Positions 55,371 through 64,000 of a DNA stretch of 64,000 nucleotides are shown piece by piece. The DNA lies in the NCBI RefSeq assembly GCF_020176715.1, contig NZ_JAIVMF010000002.1, positions 62,001 to 126,000 of the forward strand, read 5' to 3'. A model generated the notes under the pieces. That model was not told the origin of the DNA and searched no databases. It saw only the letters and a list, made by a program, of their open reading frames with translations. Within the stretch, counting starts at the first letter, position 1; every line of letters starts with the position of its first letter. A program made the translations under genes and the position numbers. Source of the DNA: Stappia stellulata. GTDB taxonomy: Bacteria; Pseudomonadota; Alphaproteobacteria; Rhizobiales; Stappiaceae.

Positions 55371-55481
55371 AGGGAAGTTAGCTGCAGAAAATCATTGAAC
55401 ACCATTTCATGCTGTAGAAAAGCCCGCGAAAAACCAAATGTATATGAATTGACATTGCTTGGTTTATTGCAAGACTTTGAA

Positions 55482-55497
55482 AAACTGTCAGCAGTTT
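55482..55497. promoter_or_regulatory. operator-like palindrome AAACTGT-CA-GCAGTTT
   Basis: Located 76 nt before the TctC-type start. Arms pair at six of seven positions. A TTGACA at 55449-55454 lies upstream, so the site would fall just after the promoter core. Together with the site at 55355 it occupies the divergent region between the decarboxylase and the transporter. Confidence 0.55.
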
Positions 55498-55572
55498 GGA
55501 GGATGCGAGCTGCCGTCCCGGCGCGTAAACCCGCACCAGACGTCCCTGAGCAAATGTGAGGAGGAAAGAGCC

Positions 55573-56655
55573 ATGAGTGCACCGAACAGGATTGCCGCGA
55601 CGGCGGTACTTGCCATGGGGCTGGCATCTGTGCCGGCCCTTGCCGAGACGCCGTTCTACGAGGGCAAGACCATCGAGGTTTTGATCAACTATTCCGCCGG
55701 CGGCCCGACCGATGTCGAGGCACGGCTGATCGCCCGGTATCTGGGAAAACATATTCCCGGCAATCCGACGATTATCGCCCGCAACCGCGCTGGTGCTGGC
55801 GGCATGATCGGCATGAACTACATGGCGGATGTGGCCAAGCCAGACGGGTTGACCGTGGCAATCTTCTCGCCGCCGGTCTTCACCGAAGTGCTCGGCGATG
55901 CGGGACTTGATACCCGCTTCAAGGACTTCGTCTGGTTGTCCTCGCTCGCCGTGCCGCAGATCTGCTACGTGCGCCGCGACACGCCGCCGGGCATCGAGGA
56001 TCCAGCCGATCTCCTGCAGGCCGAGACTTTCAACGCGTCCGGCATCCGTCCCACCAGCACGCACGACATCCGCATGCGCCTGTCACTCGATGTGCTGGGC
56101 GTCGACTACAATTACGTGACCGGCTATAAGGGTCTGGCAGGTGCCTCTGCCGCAGTCCTCCAGAACGAGGCGCAGTATTCCTGTGGCTCGATCGCCAGCT
56201 ACCGGTCCTCCGTGGTGCCGTCGATGGTGGAGACCGGCATTGCCCTGCCGCTCTTCTATTATGCGGTCGTCGATGCGGAGGGGAACGACGTCCTCGATCC
56301 GAGCCTGCCTGACATCCCGACATTCCGGGACTATTACCGGTCCGTCCACGGCGAAGACCCGTCCGGTGAGGTCTATGAGGTCTTCGAGGCGGTCAACAAT
56401 CTGAAGACCAGCCTGCAGCGCGGCTCCTTCGTTCCGCTCGGCACGCCCGAGGAGGCGGTCGACGCCCTGCGTCAGGCCTGGAAGGCGCTCGAGACCGATG
56501 AGGAATTCCTTGGCGCGTACGAGGAGGCGTTCCAGGCGAAGCCGGTCATTGCGCACGGTGAGGAGACGATGGCGCTGATCGAATCCCTTGATGACATCGA
56601 CGCCGACCTCGTGAGCTTCCTTAGCGACTACATCGCCGCCGGCTCCGACAACTGA
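55573..56655 (+). CDS. tctC: TctC-type periplasmic binding protein of a tripartite tricarboxylate transporter
   Basis: A 360-residue exported protein. The signal peptide spans residues 1-24 (cut near ALA-ETPFY). The mature part has the family pattern IEVLINYSAGGPTDVEARLI, NRAGAGGMIGMNYMADVAKP and DGLTVAIFSPPV, which form the two loops that hold a carboxylate. The start at 55573 is set by GAGGAAAGA before it. It delivers the substrate to the TctA-TctB protein encoded next. Confidence 0.88.
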   Translation: MSAPNRIAATAVLAMGLASVPALAETPFYEGKTIEVLINYSAGGPTDVEARLIARYLGKHIPGNPTIIARNRAGAGGMIGMNYMADVAKPDGLTVAIFSPPVFTEVLGDAGLDTRFKDFVWLSSLAVPQICYVRRDTPPGIEDPADLLQAETFNASGIRPTSTHDIRMRLSLDVLGVDYNYVTGYKGLAGASAAVLQNEAQYSCGSIASYRSSVVPSMVETGIALPLFYYAVVDAEGNDVLDPSLPDIPTFRDYYRSVHGEDPSGEVYEVFEAVNNLKTSLQRGSFVPLGTPEEAVDALRQAWKALETDEEFLGAYEEAFQAKPVIAHGEETMALIESLDDIDADLVSFLSDYIAAGSDN

Positions 56656-56828
56656 CCAGCTCCGGCCGGGCGATCGCATGGCGGTCGGCCGGCCGGTCCG
56701 GGACTGTTTAGAGCCTGACTGCCCGGCTTGCATCATCCCCGGTTGCGTGGAGCGGGCGGGAGTTAAGCGGCGCCGGCCCGTTCGCGATGGCGGCGGCACG
56801 GTGTCCGGCGAGTGTCACGGAGACCACG

Positions 56829-58808
56829 ATGTATGACATGATCCTGAGCAGCCTTGCGGCTGTCGTTGCCTGGCCGGCCATTGGATATCTTGTGCTAGGC
56901 ACGATCCTGGGTCTCTTTTTTGGCGCGGTGCCGGGCCTGTCCGGCCTCGTCGGCATGGCGATCCTGTTGCCCTTCACCTTCACCATGGAGCCGGTCGCGG
57001 CCTTCGCCTTCCTGCTCGGCATGTACGCTGTCACCACGACGAGCGACACGCTGGCCTCGGTGCTGCTCGGCATCCCGGGCACCTCCGCATCCCAGGCCAC
57101 CATCCTCGACGGGTATCCAATGGCAAAAAAGGGCGAGGCGGCGCGGGCTCTCGGCGCCGCCTTCTTTGTCTCCGCTGTCGGGGGGCTGCTCGGCGCGCTG
57201 TTCCTCGGCCTGTCGATTCCGGTCCTGCAGCCAGTCATTCTCGCCTTCGCCCAGCCGGAATTCTTCATGCTCGGTGTTCTGGCACTCACCATGGTGGCGT
57301 CGCTGTCGGGGGGCTCGATCCTGCTCGGCCTCGTCTCCGCCCTGCTTGGGCTCTTGATCTCCTATGTCGGCTATTCGCCGACCGACGCGATCCCGCGCTA
57401 CACCTTCGATGTCATCTATCTGTTCGAGGGCCTGCCGCTCATTCCGGTGATCCTCGGCCTGTTCGCCCTGCCGGAATTGCTGGCGCTGGCCGTCGGCAAT
57501 ACCTCGATCTCCCGCGTCGACCAGACCGAAACGCGCTCGCGCATGCTCGACGGAGTGTACGATGCCATCCGCAACTGGTGGCTCGTCCTGCGCTCCAGCG
57601 CGATCGGCTGTTATGTCGGGCTGTTGCCCGGGCTCGGCGGCTCCATCGTCGACTGGATCGCCTACGGCCATGTCGTGCAAAGCTCCCGGGACAAGAGCAG
57701 GTTCGGCGAGGGCGACATCCGCGGCGTGATCGCGCCGGAAGCGGCCAACAACGCCCAGAAGGGCGCCGCCCTCATCCCGACGGTCACCTTCGGTATTCCC
57801 GGCAGCGCGCCGATGGCGATCCTGCTCGGCGCCCTGCTCATTCAGGGCCTGCAGCCGGGCCCGCAAATGCTGACCACCAAGCTCGACATCACCTTATCCA
57901 TGATGTGGACGATGGTGATCGCCAACGTGCTCGGGGCCGGGCTACTGTTCCTGTTCGGCCGCTATCTCGTCCGGCTCACCTTCGTCCCCGGCCATCTCAT
58001 CGTGCCGGGCGTTTGCCTGTTTCTGTTCATGGGAGCCTGGCTTGCCACCAGCAATATGGGCGACTGGGTCGCGCTGCTCCTGTTCGGCATGCTTGGCTAT
58101 CTGATGAAGTGCGGTGGCATCCCGCGTGCCCCGCTGGTTCTCGGTATCATTCTTGGCCCGATCATGGAGAACGCGCTCGCCATCTCGCTGTCTGCCTATA
58201 ACGGATATGGCTGGATAGGCCGACCGATAGTCGTGGTCCTCGCCGTGATGGTCGTCGTATCGCTCGGCTATGCAATCTGGAACCACGCCTGGCGAGGGAG
58301 CGCCACTTCCCCCGTGGATGGCCTTGACGCGCACATGCCGCGACCGGGCGTGGTTGCGGCTCGGCCGGTCGACCAGCTCCTGCCGCTTGTCATCCTCACT
58401 GGCGCCTTTGTCGCTGCGGCGGTTCTTGCCGTGGACTGGCCCGCAAACAGCGCCCGCTTCCCGCTTATGACCGGCATTCCCGGAGCGGTCCTTGCCGTTG
58501 TGGCTCTGGGTGTCGCGTTTCGCCATCTGCAGGCCGATCGCGCTGCGGGCAGGGGGCTCGGCGCGCCGCCGCAGCCGCTCGGTCGTGTCCTGCATTTCGC
58601 CTTCTGGTTGTTGGCCATCGTCGGCGTCACGATCCTGCTCGGTCAGCGCATCGCCCTGCCGCTCTTTGCCGGACTCTATCTTGTGGTCTGGGGTGGTTAC
58701 GGCTGGCGGGTTGCCGTGCCCTATGCGCTCGGCTGCCTTTCGGTCCTTATGCTGATCTTCGATCAAGTCGTGGCCGTCAGTTGGTATCCGGCATTGGTTC
58801 TGCGATAG
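56829..58808 (+). CDS. tctA: tripartite tricarboxylate transporter, TctA fused to a TctB-like domain
   Basis: A 659-residue membrane protein. Residues 1 to about 495 are TctA: GAVPGLSGLVGMAILLPFTF, GIPGTSASQATILDGYPMAK and the second repeat LLPGLGGSIVDWIAYGHV with TFGIPGSAPMAILLGALL. The final 145 residues, after a polar linker, have four hydrophobic helices (LLPLVILTGAFVAAAVLAVD, ARFPLMTGIPGAVLAVVALG, FWLLAIVGVTILLG, LGCLSVLMLIFDQVV) in the TctB pattern. No separate tctB is present. The start at 56829 (GGAG upstream) is preferred over 56787. Import is driven by a sodium or proton gradient. Confidence 0.85.
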   Translation: MYDMILSSLAAVVAWPAIGYLVLGTILGLFFGAVPGLSGLVGMAILLPFTFTMEPVAAFAFLLGMYAVTTTSDTLASVLLGIPGTSASQATILDGYPMAKKGEAARALGAAFFVSAVGGLLGALFLGLSIPVLQPVILAFAQPEFFMLGVLALTMVASLSGGSILLGLVSALLGLLISYVGYSPTDAIPRYTFDVIYLFEGLPLIPVILGLFALPELLALAVGNTSISRVDQTETRSRMLDGVYDAIRNWWLVLRSSAIGCYVGLLPGLGGSIVDWIAYGHVVQSSRDKSRFGEGDIRGVIAPEAANNAQKGAALIPTVTFGIPGSAPMAILLGALLIQGLQPGPQMLTTKLDITLSMMWTMVIANVLGAGLLFLFGRYLVRLTFVPGHLIVPGVCLFLFMGAWLATSNMGDWVALLLFGMLGYLMKCGGIPRAPLVLGIILGPIMENALAISLSAYNGYGWIGRPIVVVLAVMVVVSLGYAIWNHAWRGSATSPVDGLDAHMPRPGVVAARPVDQLLPLVILTGAFVAAAVLAVDWPANSARFPLMTGIPGAVLAVVALGVAFRHLQADRAAGRGLGAPPQPLGRVLHFAFWLLAIVGVTILLGQRIALPLFAGLYLVVWGGYGWRVAVPYALGCLSVLMLIFDQVVAVSWYPALVLR

Positions 58809-59202: not shown

Positions 59203-59733
59203 TCAGCCGCCGACCAGGAAGGACTGATCGCGCGCGACGAAGCTGCGCGGGGTGAAGCGCACGAAGACGTTGGTCCGGGACTCCGGTGCGTCGGCGAAAC
59301 GGGGATCCCAGCCGGCGCGGTTGGACCCGAGATATTTGGACAGGAGCGCGATCGCGGTGTCGGCGTCCCAGGGGTGAGGCCGGGCAATGCCGCGAAAGCC
59401 AAGATGCAGGAAGCGCCCGGTGGGCTTGTCGAAGTCGACGATGCCGACGGCGGCATTGGGGGCCTGTCTCACCTTGTCGGGAAACGTGTCGCCCCGGTTG
59501 GCGCTGATGAACCAGAGATCGCGCCCGTCATGATGGAACCACAGCGGGGAATCGCAGGCCGTCTCCGGTTTCCACGTGGCGAGATGGGCAACCAGCGGCC
59601 GCTTGAGGAATTCCACCACGTCGAAGGCCGGCTTGCGCCCGTCGTGGGTCAGTCCCGCGAGATCAAGCGCCGTCGTATCTGTCGCGGCTGTCACGTCTGA
59701 CATGTCTGTCGTGTTTGGCGGGCTGTCGTTCAC
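59203..59733 (-). CDS. PNPOx/FMN-binding split-barrel protein
   Basis: A 176-residue protein. KRPLVAHLATWKPETACDSP, LWFHHDGRDLWFISANRGDT and the charged KVRQAPNAAVGIVDFDKPTG follow the pyridoxamine-phosphate-oxidase-like split-barrel pattern in which strands alternate with an FMN- or F420-binding loop. A disordered N-terminus of about 30 residues precedes it. It is the last gene of the five-gene operon and overlaps the gene before it by 4 nt. A role as flavin reductase or redox partner is possible. Confidence 0.78.
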   Translation of the reverse strand: MNDSPPNTTDMSDVTAATDTTALDLAGLTHDGRKPAFDVVEFLKRPLVAHLATWKPETACDSPLWFHHDGRDLWFISANRGDTFPDKVRQAPNAAVGIVDFDKPTGRFLHLGFRGIARPHPWDADTAIALLSKYLGSNRAGWDPRFADAPESRTNVFVRFTPRSFVARDQSFLVGG

Positions 59734-60830
59734 GGTGCGCGCCCTCCCGTGGGCATGCTGTCCGGCGCTGTGGCGCTTGCGTCGAGACCGCGGACCGCGA
59801 TCCGGGGCAGGAGATCTTCAATCCATGCCCGGTTCCAGCCGGTCCGGGCGCTGGTGAGCACCATGAGCGGAACGGCGCCTTGCGGGTCGCGGATCGCCGT
59901 ATAGGCGCCATGCGTGTCCGACACGAAGGACAACAGGCTGCCGTCAGAGAGCCTCTCTGTGCGGCAGGGGTGTTTTTCCTCCGTCCATGGCCGCAGGCGG
60001 TCGTAGGCGTCGGGGTGGTCGAAGAGGATCGCCCGCAGCTCGTGACCCTTGTCGGGACCTGTGTCGAAGACGAACTCGAACTCCCGGTGGGCCGGGTAGT
60101 CGAAGACGATCACGCTGTCGAGCGCAAGGCCCGTGTCGGCCGGCAGCTCCACGCCGATGTCGAGGCCGTCGGCCTCGCCAGCAGTCAACCAGGTCGTGCG
60201 CCGGGGGCGCCGGTCGCGCCGCCAGCGCAGGAAGCCGATCGGCGCGTTGACCGGGTCGGGAGCATGGCGGGCCCAATAGCTGAGCCTTGCGTAGGGTGTC
60301 GCCAGCAGGGCACGGGCGCGTACGGTGTCGAGCCGGGCGAGGGAGCGGAAGACGTCGGCCGCGCCGTCGGCGCCCAGCTCGCCCGATGTCACGGCCAGTT
60401 CGCAGGAGGTGCGGGAAAGCCGCGCATAGCCGCCCTCTCGCCCCTGGAAATCGCGGCCGTGCCAGCCGACGTAGCCGCCGGGGAGGTCGAAGGACGTAGC
60501 CGCAGAGCCCCACAGGCACGGCAGGTCGCCGGCCGCCGGACCCCAGTCGTAGAGAAACTGCTTGAGCCGGAAGGTCGTGGCGCCGCGTCTTGCCTCAAAA
60601 CGCAGGGAACAGGGATTGGCCGTGCCCCAATTGGCGCGATGTCCGCTGCCGTCGCCGCGTCCGCCCGGCGGTTGCTCCCTGCGCAATGTCCAGGTGATGT
60701 CCCAGCCCGCAAGGCCGTCGGGCGCGAAGATCGGAAAATTCACATCCTCCTGGATGTCCGCAAGCGGCAGGTCGTGCAAAAGACCGTCGGCCGGGGCGGT
60801 TGCGGGGCGGGTGTCTTTGGTGTCGGCCAT
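59730..60830 (-). CDS. unrecognised 366-residue protein of the FGE-like operon
   Basis: Start at the ATG 60830 (MADTKDTRPATAPADGLLHD). The sequence is rich in Trp, Arg and Asp and seems beta-rich: GLAGWDITWTLRREQPPGG, RLKQFLYDWGPAAGDLPCLW, FDLPGGYVGWHGRDFQGREG, VIVFDYPAHREFEFVF. No signal peptide or membrane helix is present. No domain is recognised. Its place between the PNPOx-like and GTPase genes suggests that it is a dedicated part of the system. An upstream extension of the frame to 61145 is rejected because it overlaps the GTPase gene and is Arg-rich. Confidence 0.65.
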   Translation of the reverse strand: MADTKDTRPATAPADGLLHDLPLADIQEDVNFPIFAPDGLAGWDITWTLRREQPPGGRGDGSGHRANWGTANPCSLRFEARRGATTFRLKQFLYDWGPAAGDLPCLWGSAATSFDLPGGYVGWHGRDFQGREGGYARLSRTSCELAVTSGELGADGAADVFRSLARLDTVRARALLATPYARLSYWARHAPDPVNAPIGFLRWRRDRRPRRTTWLTAGEADGLDIGVELPADTGLALDSVIVFDYPAHREFEFVFDTGPDKGHELRAILFDHPDAYDRLRPWTEEKHPCRTERLSDGSLLSFVSDTHGAYTAIRDPQGAVPLMVLTSARTGWNRAWIEDLLPRIAVRGLDASATAPDSMPTGGRAP

Positions 60831-60856
60831 GCGCTCTTGTCCGGGTTTGCAAGGGG

Positions 60857-61888
60857 TCACGCGAGTGACAGGGCATCGATGCTCGGCAGGCCGGAGCCGG
60901 GGTCCGAGTGGCGCGACAGCGCCAGATCGAGCGCACCGCGCAGCGCGTCCGGGTCGAGATTGCGTCCGATCACGGTGGCGCTCAGCGGCGCGGCCGGGCG
61001 GTCCGTTTCGGTGACCGGCTCGAGCGGAAAGAGCACGCCGTTGACGACGTGAAAGGCGACCGGGGCGGATGCATCGCGGCAGGCGGCGATCCCCTTCAGG
61101 CGGATGAGATCCTGCCCCAGGATGGTGGAGAGGGCGAAGAGCCATTCACCGATGACCGCCGATGTGATGTTTCCGTCATGGCGCAGTGAAAAGGCGGCGA
61201 TATCGGTGTGGCGATGTCCGTGGGGCGCCGTGCCCGGATCGGGAAGCGAGGCCTCGCGGTCTTGCCAGCCCGGTGCGAAGAGCTCGCAGACGGCATCGTC
61301 GCGTTCGATGATCCGGGCCGCGGGGTTAAGATCGCCAAGCCGCCGTTCGAAACGGGCGCGCTCCGTGCCGACCGCAAGGTCGGTCTTGGTGAGCGCAAGC
61401 GTGTCGGCCGTGCGGATCTGGTCGTGCAGGATGTCTTCCGGCATGCCGGTGCCGCGCCAGGCGGTGAGGTCGGCGCAGGCCAGGACCCTGCGAATGGCGA
61501 GACGCGCCGACAGCAGCGGGTCTGCGGCGATCGCCCCGATCAGTGCGGATGTCTCGGCAAGACCCGACGCCTCGACCACGATGCCGCGAAAGGGACGGTC
61601 CGGTCGCGACAGGTCGGCAAGTGCTGCCACCATGCCCTCAAGCCCGGTGCAGCACATGCAATCGCCGGAAATGCCCACATTGATATAGCCGGCGCGGGCG
61701 AAGAGGTCGGAATCGATGCTCTCCTCGCCGATGTCGCCAACCACCATGTCGACATCGACCGGGGCCGCGCGGTCGAGGGCATCGCGCAGCAGCGAGGTCT
61801 TGCCGCTGCCGAGCGGGCCGGTGACGATCACCAGCGGTCGCCGTTGATTGCCCCCGGCGCCGCCGCTGCGCTCCTCCAGGCGGCTCAT
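60857..61888 (-). CDS. COG0523/CobW-family metal-chaperone GTPase
   Basis: A 343-residue P-loop GTPase. Walker A is GPLGSGKTS (residues 24-32); the family mark is the metal-binding C-x-C-C in GDCMCC (Cys 77, 79, 80); the base-recognition motif is LTKTD (about 166-170); the C-terminal CobW_C domain follows (SLRHDGNITSAVIGEWLFAL). A short His patch (PHGHRHTD) precedes it. These proteins load metals into client enzymes. Overlap of 4 nt with the FGE-like gene makes that protein the first candidate client. Confidence 0.88.
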   Translation of the reverse strand: MSRLEERSGGAGGNQRRPLVIVTGPLGSGKTSLLRDALDRAAPVDVDMVVGDIGEESIDSDLFARAGYINVGISGDCMCCTGLEGMVAALADLSRPDRPFRGIVVEASGLAETSALIGAIAADPLLSARLAIRRVLACADLTAWRGTGMPEDILHDQIRTADTLALTKTDLAVGTERARFERRLGDLNPAARIIERDDAVCELFAPGWQDREASLPDPGTAPHGHRHTDIAAFSLRHDGNITSAVIGEWLFALSTILGQDLIRLKGIAACRDASAPVAFHVVNGVLFPLEPVTETDRPAAPLSATVIGRNLDPDALRGALDLALSRHSDPGSGLPSIDALSLA

Positions 61889-63261
61889 GAGGTCTTCGGC
61901 GGCTGCCAGACGCAGCGAAAGCCGATCTCGCAGTGCCGGTCGGTGAGCAGGTCCTTGCCGCGGTAGTAGCCGCGCAGCATTTCCGGGCGGGAGGTGAAGC
62001 AGCCGCCGCGAATGACGGCGAAGGCTGCCGGCCGGTTCATGAACTCGCGCGGATGGCGTCCCTTGAAGAAGGGATCCATGTCCTTGTGGTCGTAGAAGTT
62101 TGTCCTGGTCCATTCCCAGGTGTTGCCGGCCAGGCCGCGCACGCCGTAGACGCTTTCGGAGCCTTTGCGGGCAGTCGCCGGCTGGACGGTGCGTGCGGGC
62201 GTTTCGTCGCTGTAGGTCCGCAGCAGGTCTTCCCAGTCGGCCATGGACGCGACCGGACGGCCGAAACAGGTTTCGACGTAATTCGCCATTTCGGGCTCGA
62301 ATGTATCGCCCCAGGGGTAGACGTGGCCGTCGGGGCCGCGCGCCGCCTTTTCCCATTGGGTTTCGTCGGGCAGGGCCTTGCCGGCCCAGTCGGCATAGGC
62401 CCAGGCGTCGTACCAGTCGACGCCGGTCACCGGCAGGGCGGGATCGGCGAAGCGCGGGTCGCGCCAGTGGGACGGCGTATAGTCCTTGTTGGGGGGCGCG
62501 TCCGGGTGACCGACCTTGTCGGGATGGGCGCGGGCGTAGTCGAGAAAGACGGCATAGTCGGCATTTGAGACGGGATCGCGGTCGATGTAGAAGGCGTCGA
62601 CATGGACCTCGCGCCGGGGCAGGAAGTCCTTGTAGAAGAACGGGAAATCCTCGACGGAATCGACGCCGGTCACCGCCGGGCCTTCCGGGATGTGAACCAT
62701 GGTGGAAAGATCGGGCTCGCGCGCCCGCTTGCGGTCGAGAAGCGCGCGATAGGGGGCGAGAAAGTCGTTTTCGCGCGCCTTGAGTTCCGTCGGGTCGGTG
62801 CTGTCGAAAATCGTGGTCAAGGCATGTTTGGTGAGCGAGGCGCCGATGCCGACCGGCTTGCGCTTGTAGTCCTCGCGGGTGAAATAGCTCGGCCAGCCGG
62901 AAATGCGCACCAGATGCGAGACGGCGCGCGGTTCGCGCAGCGCGCCGCAGTGGCGAATGGCGCGGAAGGCGACCGCGTCGACCGCGTCATGGGTGGCCTC
63001 GCAGAGGAGCTCGCGCGCCGGCAGATAGTGCGACCAGGCATGGGCAATGTCGCAACCGACGACGCGCACCTGCCAGATCGGGTGGTTGATCGCCGCCTCC
63101 AGGCGCGCCATGCCCTCTTCCGGGCTGGGCGCGGCTTCAAGCTCCGCGCGCACCGCCTCGACCTGTTTCCAGAAGGCCGTGTCATCGAGCGCGTGAAAGG
63201 CCTCGGCCGTCTCGGTGTCGGACGTCTTTTGCGGCGTTCGCGTCATGGTGGCGGTCGTCAT
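61885..63261 (-). CDS. FGE-sulfatase-domain (SUMF1/EgtB-like) protein with a HEAT-like N-terminus
   Basis: A 458-residue protein. Residues about 45-160 look like HEAT/PBS repeats (EEGMARLEAAINHPIWQVRV, HDAVDAVAFRAIRHCGALRE). Residues 188-452 are an FGE domain: TMVHIPEG, FYIDRDPVSNADYAVFLDYA, PVTGVDWYDAWAYADWAGKA, LPDETQWEKAARG, GVRGLAGNTWEWTRTNFYD, RGGCFTSRPEML and CEIGFRCV. The copper-binding Cys pair of true FGE (GGS-x-x-C-x4-C) is absent: only Cys 421 lies in that loop, with Cys 444 and 450 near the end. A His pair as in EgtB is not obvious. Overlaps both neighbours by 4 nt. Confidence 0.85.
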   Translation of the reverse strand: MTTATMTRTPQKTSDTETAEAFHALDDTAFWKQVEAVRAELEAAPSPEEGMARLEAAINHPIWQVRVVGCDIAHAWSHYLPARELLCEATHDAVDAVAFRAIRHCGALREPRAVSHLVRISGWPSYFTREDYKRKPVGIGASLTKHALTTIFDSTDPTELKARENDFLAPYRALLDRKRAREPDLSTMVHIPEGPAVTGVDSVEDFPFFYKDFLPRREVHVDAFYIDRDPVSNADYAVFLDYARAHPDKVGHPDAPPNKDYTPSHWRDPRFADPALPVTGVDWYDAWAYADWAGKALPDETQWEKAARGPDGHVYPWGDTFEPEMANYVETCFGRPVASMADWEDLLRTYSDETPARTVQPATARKGSESVYGVRGLAGNTWEWTRTNFYDHKDMDPFFKGRHPREFMNRPAAFAVIRGGCFTSRPEMLRGYYRGKDLLTDRHCEIGFRCVWQPPKTS

Positions 63262-64000
63262 GCGGACATCTCCCTTTTTGCCGGCAGCGCACTGTCCGGT
63301 TCATCGCGTGACATGCTCGGGGGCACGGCGGTGTGCCGGCGCCTCAGATGGGTGACGAAGAAGGACGGATGGTGAAAGATCTCGGTCAGCAGATTGTCGT
63401 TCGAGACCCACAGTCCGAAGGCGTTCGGAAACAGGATTTCCGCGTCGAAAAGGCCTTTCAGTGTCGAGGGATGGAGCCAGCTGTAGCCGCCGGCCGGAGG
63501 TCCTTTTGCAGGACGCGTGCTGAATGAGCCGCCGGCGATGTCGAGGGCGTAGTCGACATCCAGCCCGTTGCCGTCGCTGAGCCGCAGGGTGACGGGGCGC
63601 GGGCTTGCGCAATGCCGGCTCCAGTAATAGGTGCCGACGAGGCGGGCCAGAACCGCGCGAACGAGATCGTCCGGGTCGCCTTCGAAGGCGGCTTCACCAT
63701 AGGACCCCGGCCGGAATTGCGGAATGGCGGCATCGGGATCGAGTTCCAGGTCCGCATAGCTTTCGGCCACCTCGTCCGCCCGGTGGTGTCCGGCCGGCTG
63801 GATCTCGACGGGGCGCCCGGCGGAAAGCACGAAGCGATCGCCCGGGCCGGGCAGGTGGCTGCGGTTGCCGCGCTCCTGCAGCGCCTCATGCGCCTGAAGG
63901 GGCGTGAAGGGGAAGATCTTGCGGTTGACCCAGGCGAAGCGGTCCGCGGCATCGATGCCGTCGACCCGCCAGCCGAAGGACGAGGGCACGGTGAGCTCCG
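63258..64000 (-). CDS. MBL-fold-like protein, 5' end outside the window
   Basis: The frame is open to the window edge (at least 247 codons). A GTG at 63989 could be a start but lies in an open frame that continues upstream. The visible part has SHLPGPGDRFVLSAGRPVEI, a Rossmann-like polar middle and a C-terminus GGYSWLHPSTLKGLFDAEIL followed by FPNAFGLWVSNDNLLTEIFH. That last part resembles the tail of MBL-fold proteins of the Rieske-MBL/UlaG-like type (W-x-x-P-x-x-L--L--G-I). The His ligands would lie outside the window, so the assignment is tentative. Confidence 0.5.
   Translation of the reverse strand, partial: ELTVPSSFGWRVDGIDAADRFAWVNRKIFPFTPLQAHEALQERGNRSHLPGPGDRFVLSAGRPVEIQPAGHHRADEVAESYADLELDPDAAIPQFRPGSYGEAAFEGDPDDLVRAVLARLVGTYYWSRHCASPRPVTLRLSDGNGLDVDYALDIAGGSFSTRPAKGPPAGGYSWLHPSTLKGLFDAEILFPNAFGLWVSNDNLLTEIFHHPSFFVTHLRRRHTAVPPSMSRDEPDSALPAKREMSA

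Follow-up and report, generated by a model that had tools for sequence, protein, structure and literature searches.

The five-gene operon at positions 59203 to 64000 of the window (the whole 64,000-nucleotide stretch of Stappia stellulata DNA analyzed here) is one half of a larger, peptide-type orphan nonribosomal peptide synthetase (NRPS) cluster, which is cut by the window edge. We propose, with a probability of roughly 0.6, that this half of the cluster carries its tailoring functions and that a protein combining a HEAT-like part with a formylglycine-generating enzyme (FGE) fold, termed HEAT-FGE, oxidizes an amino-acid or peptide intermediate together with a split-barrel partner. Considering the genomic context, HEAT-FGE and the split-barrel protein are best read as a mobile oxidative tailoring module for such intermediates. 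In our judgment, the most interesting element of this locus is the family of HEAT-FGE proteins, together with its association with PNPOx proteins and peptide ligases.

The operon comprises the following genes.

59203-59733, minus strand: PNPOx-like split-barrel protein, 176 amino acids, GTG start, PNPOx_N match below cut-off
59730-60830, minus strand: UNK, a protein without sequence family, 366 amino acids, ATG at 60830
60857-61888, minus strand: COG0523 (cobW) GTPase, 343 amino acids, with a GDCMCC motif
61885-63261, minus strand: HEAT-FGE fusion protein, 458 amino acids, HEAT-like at about residues 27-177 and FGE fold at residues 186-452
63258-64646 (window numbering), minus strand: MBL-fold protein, 462 amino acids, of which the part inside the window (63258-64000) is C-terminal

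The tight five-gene arrangement described in the earlier note was confirmed, with three 4-nt overlaps (63258-63261, 61885-61888, and 59730-59733) and one 26-nt gap between the COG0523 and UNK genes. The families were likewise as named there, that is, MBL-, FGE-, COG0523-, and PNPOx-like proteins plus an unrecognized 366-residue protein, and the C-x-C-C of the metal GTPase is present within GDCMCC. Pfam matches were obtained to FGE-sulfatase (2.6e-45), to cobW (2e-29) and CobW_C (1.5e-9) for the GTPase, and to Lactamase_B_3 (3.9e-12) for the MBL protein, while PNPOx_N was matched at only 7.9e-5. Since orthologues of all five genes occur in the same order in a Stappia stellulata locus (L018, strain DSM 5886, 73-88% identity) and in a near-identical metagenome-assembled genome (MAG; locus L017, 93-99% identity), the five open reading frames are not a product of chance. 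Because the window breaks off at 64000, the interval 59203-64000 includes neither the start of the MBL gene nor the remaining cluster genes. The neighborhood on both sides of the operon contains the following genes.

65117-66022, plus strand: SAM methyltransferase, 301 amino acids, about 470 bp past the MBL start and divergent from the operon
65982-72218, plus strand: NRPS open reading frame, up to 2078 amino acids, with in-frame ATGs at 66009 and 66015 as likelier starts
72252-73316, plus strand: UNK2, a paralogue of UNK, 354 amino acids, 34% identity to UNK (E 3.5e-42)
73261-74541, plus strand: MFS transporter
55459-58808, other flank of the operon: a TctC-like gene (25.9 bits, cut-off 27) and a TctA gene

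We judge the cluster to extend from 59203 to about 74541. Pfam detected two AMP-binding, two Condensation, and two carrier domains in the NRPS, and the order A-T-C-A-T-C was read from motif positions. Adenylation domains for alpha-amino acids are marked by an Asp that contacts the alpha-amino group of the substrate. This residue is kept in the A2 motif FDAY, whereas in the A1 motif FAVS, compared with FDGS in LgrA, it is replaced by Ala. The first condensation domain has the motif HHAICDG and the second the damaged motif HNIMVSG; a thioesterase domain was not reported by Pfam. The simplest reading of these motifs is that the NRPS would make a dipeptide-like core whose first acid is unusual. 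Orthologues of the NRPS were seen in the Stappia group only.

In the proposed pathway, the substrate of NRPS module 1 would be a carboxylic acid that is bound without the usual contact to an alpha-amino group, and module 2 would activate an amino acid. HEAT-FGE would oxidize an amino-acid or peptide intermediate using O2 and a His/Asp/Glu metal site, with the PNPOx-like protein supplying or accepting electrons through flavin, and the MBL protein may act as a CmlA-like diiron hydroxylase. UNK might bind substrate, intermediate, or partner, the GTPase might help to load metal in the Stappia lineage, and the MFS protein would export the product. The oxidative modification of a small molecule envisaged in the earlier note fits the context, given the adjacent NRPS and methyltransferase genes and the occurrence of HEAT-FGE near PNPOx and peptide-ligase genes elsewhere; the metal dependence and the reaction are putative.

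The two halves of the cluster are divergent and about 470 bp apart, and UNK alone is widespread, as would be expected if the five genes formed a separate operon with another role that lies beside the NRPS by chance. We give this alternative only a slim chance, considering that a UNK paralogue, on the strand opposite to the operon, immediately follows the NRPS and that S. stellulata keeps both halves together as far as locus L018 reaches (it ends inside the NRPS, before the positions of UNK2 and the transporter). Moreover, HEAT-FGE was found in 1 of 385 sampled genomes of the class at E<=1e-60, its own, and in none of the other 384, with a few best candidates scored per genome.

Unusual oxygen chemistry is a known trait of FGE-fold enzymes, which convert Cys to formylglycine and form C-S and C-Se bonds. 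The FGE fold of HEAT-FGE, at residues 186 to 452, scored 155.5 bits against PF03781 (cut-off 23.3), and this family was matched in 21/21 members. The N-terminal approximately 180 residues are helical in the AlphaFold model, with HEAT_2 matched in 18/21 members; the model is weak (mean pLDDT 67.5), with residues 379-424 and 428-444 under 50. For the analysis of conservation, 40 of 44 rows were retained after L095, L096, L112, and L113 had been dropped as repeats, their contigs being equal in length to those of L030, L033, L036, and L029. Residues H60, R66, D92, D95, K135-P-V-G138, H252, D282, W317, N380, E383, S424, D441, H443, and E445 are invariant in all 40 loci, and position 91 is His in 36 of them. 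We infer that HEAT-FGE acts as an oxidase or oxygenase that uses O2 and has a putative metal site composed of invariant His, Asp, and Glu residues, such as H60, H252, H443, and E445.

Despite the shared fold (PF03781 at 2.6e-45), HEAT-FGE differs from FGE (SUMF1) in its extra N-terminal HEAT-like part, its location in biosynthetic clusters, and the loss of the copper-binding Cys pair. Of the two positions corresponding to the copper-binding cysteines of human FGE, which we take to be Cys336 and Cys341 (PDB titles name C336S and C341S mutants), the first is Ser424 in 40/40 loci and the second, position 429, is Leu in 34, Val in 4, and Thr and Ala in one each; a single Cys is found at position 428 in most members from actinomycetes. 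With both positions replaced and none of the eight scanned proteins of the cluster being a sulfatase, we rejected a role in sulfatase maturation, and that HEAT-FGE is a genuine formylglycine-generating enzyme is hardly credible in spite of its fold.

The closest solved proteins by profile were CalU17 (1.2e-32), EgtB (1.9e-28), and FGE (1.4e-24), and the best fold match was ToxD (2.4e-10). CalU17 (calicheamicin) and ToxD (toxoflavin) are FGE-like proteins of natural-product clusters, but their chains of 317 to 335 amino acids are shorter than the 458 amino acids of HEAT-FGE. EgtB and SenA were the top NCBIfam matches (5.9e-28 and 1.1e-23), EgtB and OvsA were among the top PDB and fold matches, and the neighborhood of one HEAT-FGE gene (L100) includes a match to the histidine-specific methyltransferase family Methyltransf_33 (8.1e-10), so that an EgtB/OvoA/SenA-like sulfoxide or selenoxide synthase joining an S or Se donor to a building block has to be considered. 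EgtB has an N-terminal domain with a three-His iron site, and EgtB, OvsA, and SenA share with HEAT-FGE a helical part preceding the FGE domain. In HEAT-FGE, however, this part matches HEAT repeats, CalU17 scores better than EgtB, and the NCBIfam scores (98.1 of 360 bits for EgtB and 84.3 of 420 for SenA) are far below the curated cut-offs. On these scores, we rejected membership in the ergothioneine and selenoneine synthases, and a synthase of this general kind appears improbable. A bolder proposal, made tentatively, is that HEAT-FGE represents a third catalytic type within the FGE fold, having neither the Cys2 copper site of FGE nor the His3 iron site of EgtB. It would use a new metal site across the HEAT/FGE interface (H60, D92/D95, H252, and D-x-H-x-E 441-445) and a dedicated split-barrel flavin partner to oxidize amino-acid or dipeptide intermediates of numerous cryptic clusters.

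The PNPOx-like protein matched PNPOx_N (PF01243) with 23.5 bits (E 7.9e-5), under the cut-off of 28.1, and a 33% identical PNPOx-family protein from the HEAT-FGE locus of S. clavuligerus was just over it with 28.5 bits. At E<=1e-80, 392 Streptomyces genomes yielded 18 HEAT-FGE loci, one of which belongs to the seed genome, chosen for having the gene; across the class of the Streptomyces genome G679, HEAT-FGE was found in 4/394 genomes, this seed included. PNPOx genes were counted only where tblastn agreed with the profile, because the pB profile also flagged open reading frames of 300 to 1053 amino acids, probably shadow frames or neighbors. On this basis, PNPOx lies within about 10 kb of HEAT-FGE in 13/18 Streptomyces loci, or 14/18 if L109, with a weak tblastn match only (40% over 111 residues), is counted. 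The others are L096, whose contig of 12.5 kb stops short of where PNPOx would be expected, and three distant loci (L108, L110, and L111). Over all loci, our searches found no PNPOx on the cut contig L033/L096 or in L036/L112, L041, L108, L110, and L111. Since the annotated PNPOx of L065 was missed by the profiles, the counts may be too low for distant types. MBL and UNK genes occur within about 10 kb in 6/18 Streptomyces loci. From these co-occurrence counts, HEAT-FGE and PNPOx form the more constant pair, and MBL and UNK a second, optional one. Points against our preferred explanation are the 12/18 loci with HEAT-FGE and neither MBL nor UNK, the loci in which no PNPOx was found, the UNK loci that lack HEAT-FGE, the sighting of GTPase and NRPS orthologues in the Stappia group only, the weak HEAT-FGE model, the NAPE-PLD match of the MBL protein, and the damaged C2 motif of the NRPS.

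None of 40 control windows of 19.2 kb, set by hand at round coordinates in nine of these genomes, contained these PNPOx types, MBL, UNK, or the ATP-grasp and adenylation types; the PNPOx part of this control covers those subfamilies only, as the profiles had been trained on proteins of HEAT-FGE loci. ATP-grasp or adenylation genes were detected by script in 32/44 HEAT-FGE loci, and in 34/44 when L017 and L018, where the NRPS runs off the locus, are added; excluding the four repeated loci, the figure is 31/40, compared to 0/40 control windows. The loci are not independent, and the Streptomyces matches represent a handful of cluster layouts: a long AsnB/ATP-grasp type with MBL and UNK; an aldolase-luciferase-like-NRPS-aminotransferase-PNPOx type (L101-L104, Pfam domains checked in L101 only); a PNPOx-P450-ATP-grasp type (L105-L107, MFS and methyltransferase checked in L105 only); L100, where PNPOx adjoins FGE and the Methyltransf_33 gene is present; and a tandem HEAT-FGE type (L065 and L109-L111), with PhyH, MFS, and PNPOx annotated in L065. 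The recurrent HEAT-FGE subgroup, which lacks the copper cysteines, is accompanied by PNPOx-type proteins across at least five layouts, and is often located beside peptide ligases, may carry out chemistry not yet described and would provide a handle on new oxidative chemistry and peptide-like products.

The MBL protein carries the metal motif HHHxDH, with H56, H58, D60, and H61 present in 19/19 members, and D153 and H179 are invariant as well (19/19). The region of the third metal motif contains no conserved His but an invariant S-x-V-x-F-P-E136 (19/19). Eight PDB proteins were matched by profile, the best being the non-heme diiron monooxygenase 8a90 (3.5e-11), followed by CmlA (1e-7) and NAPE-PLD (1.2e-7), with UPF0173 hydrolases also among the eight. 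Together, the HxHxDH motif, the third-motif region without conserved His, and the nearby acidic residue resemble the CmlA-type diiron MBL hydroxylases, although Glu136 aligns three columns away from the third-motif Glu of CmlA, presumably Glu377. The domain organization also differs: the MBL match covers residues 3-184 of 462 and is thus N-terminal, followed by a C-terminal extension, whereas in CmlA chains, with an N-terminal partner and a C-terminal MBL domain, the matched part starts near residue 250. On these sequence features we favor an oxygenase over a hydrolase and leave the latter open. Less probable, but of real weight, is the reading of this protein as an ordinary hydrolase of the MBL fold (lactonase, amidase, or thioesterase-like) that might, for example, release the NRPS product: Lactamase_B_3 and Lactamase_B_2 were matched in 19/19 members, the hydrolase NAPE-PLD scored about equal to CmlA, UPF0173 proteins were among the matches, and the last domain of the NRPS is a damaged C domain, a thioesterase not being matched in Pfam. 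The invariant Glu136 in place of a conserved His, the diiron monooxygenase as top match, and scores far under the cut-offs of the NCBIfam MBL hydrolase models UPF0173 and UlaG (26.4 of 144 and 15.9 of 306 bits) speak against the hydrolase.

A search of genome contigs for UNK identified 46 loci, among which FGE, MBL, and UNK occur together in 18. Of the 46, 19 have a clear orthologue of HEAT-FGE with at least 43% identity, and L019 has a further one at 34%. All five genes were found in two loci only (L017 and L018), and a universal five-gene system was therefore rejected. The gene order MBL-FGE-GTPase-UNK-PNPOx of Stappia contrasts with the actinomycete order FGE-MBL-...-UNK: most actinomycete loci (Streptomyces, Kineosporia, Thermomonospora, and Actinacidiphila) read FGE-MBL-esterase-(AsnB)-UNK-aldehyde dehydrogenase-aldolase, also with ATP-grasp, PNPOx, and, mostly, PhyH and MFS genes, and L036 reads MFS-MFS-FGE-MBL-UNK-luciferase-like monooxygenase. 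UNK was found without HEAT-FGE nearby in 29 loci, one of them (L024) from the same MAG as L017; L026, L047, L049, L055, and L060 are short and cover few neighbors. The earlier note had suggested looking for the five families together in other genomes and comparing gene order, and had regarded their separation in most relatives or a match to a described pathway as refuting. The separate occurrence of HEAT-FGE and UNK goes partly against it. No title or abstract opening describing a pathway with this gene set was found in a literature search in which subscription papers are thinly covered, which makes this weak evidence of absence.

The GTPase gave 102.9 bits against cobW (cut-off 20.7) and is one of seven cobW matches in this genome. 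It shares the cobW and CobW_C domains and C-x-C-C with COG0523/CobW GTPases but falls short of the cut-offs of all named NCBIfam equivalogs that were listed and has about 33% identity to its best plasmid homologues. Orthologues were seen in L017 and L018 and in none of the other 16 FGE-MBL-UNK loci within the locus DNA examined; the cobW matches near UNK in L015, L047, and L062 are 25-32% identical, lie kilobases away, and belong to loci without HEAT-FGE. So far, the GTPase thus appears as an addition of the Stappia group. A role as general maturase was rejected on this distribution; the GTPase may be a maturase, as the earlier note had suggested, for the HEAT-FGE protein.

UNK had no family over cut-off in Pfam or NCBIfam and no relative by sequence in the PDB at E<=1, and its model (mean pLDDT 85.6) gave no Foldseek match at E<=0.001. 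The model suggests two domains of a fold that we take to be Mog1/PsbP-like, with matches, among the structures listed, to the C-terminal domain of RseB (Z 9.2, 96 residues, 3.1 angstrom), Tsi3 (7.5), LpqN (6.6), and TplEi (6.5), and of the second half to PsbP (Z 5.4 over 115 residues); these scores are modest, and a Z under 8 may mean merely a common arrangement. RseB/MucB, Tsi3, LpqN, and PsbP resemble the UNK halves in fold, but UNK lacks sequence similarity to them, has two domains, and has its own conserved motif, KQFxYDW. Residues K91, F93, Y95, D96, W97, G126, E145, and R189 are invariant in 46 rows, the numbers referring to the version 59730-60833, one codon longer, and hence being one higher than in the 366-residue protein. 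The resemblance to binding domains, including the immunity proteins Tsi3 and TplEi, together with the occurrence of UNK alone in many genomes and near two MFS genes in Brevibacterium, would also suit a role of UNK and UNK2 in self-resistance or binding, with the FGE-like protein as a noncatalytic scaffold. The strict conservation of polar residues in the latter (H60, H252, H443, and E445 in 40/40 loci) is unlike that of a mere scaffold, and we hold this alternative to be of low probability. In the preferred reading, a tailoring operon, the UNK family gains a biosynthetic context.

In a tree, UNK and UNK2 fell into separate, well-supported groups of three, with deeper joins long-branched and unsure. 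Among 297 genomes of the order, UNK was present only in its own genome, in two copies, and three whole genomes with UNK alone (Brevibacterium, Actinoalloteichus, and a Rhodobacteraceae MAG) contained no HEAT-FGE at E<=1e-30. The UNK family as a whole ranges from haloarchaea to chlamydiae.

Further gene sets were noted beside the operon and on plasmids, as was a paralogue (UNK2) of UNK, the 366-residue operon protein without a sequence family:

55459-58808, plus strand: TctC-like and TctA tripartite transporter genes, adjoining the operon
72252-73316 in window numbering (L008:18252-19316), directly 3' of the NRPS gene: UNK2, 34% identical to UNK
L012:4199-20036, linear Streptomyces plasmid: conserved cluster, shared with a second such plasmid (L013)
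L065:11938-15457, Streptomyces coelicoflavus plasmid: PhyH gene between two HEAT-FGE genes, then MFS and PNPOx genes

The transporter genes are probably unrelated to the operon. Seven cobW-family matches were found in the Stappia genome itself (G000), and thus the operon GTPase is one among several.

A UNK2 copy, 62% identical, is carried by a Rhodobacteraceae MAG (L027), in whose genome HEAT-FGE, the HEAT/FGE fusion protein, was not found at E<=1e-30. UNK homologues with no HEAT-FGE in their vicinity (L014-L016 and L044-L062) occur in haloarchaea, Chlamydiae, Holospora, a Myxococcales MAG, and Bacillaceae. A Pfam scan of UNK (the Stappia copy and two members from other loci) returned no family above the cut-off.

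The cluster on the two linear plasmids comprises genes for ATP-grasp, PhyH, HEAT-FGE, MBL, esterase, AsnB, UNK, ALDH, GntG aldolase, PNPOx, and MFS proteins; we know of no product assigned to it. Four further Streptomyces loci (L101-L104) unite HEAT-FGE with class II aldolase, luciferase-like monooxygenase, NRPS, aminotransferase, and PNPOx in one cluster. A relative with NRPS absent from its annotated neighbours is borne by an S. clavuligerus plasmid (L063).
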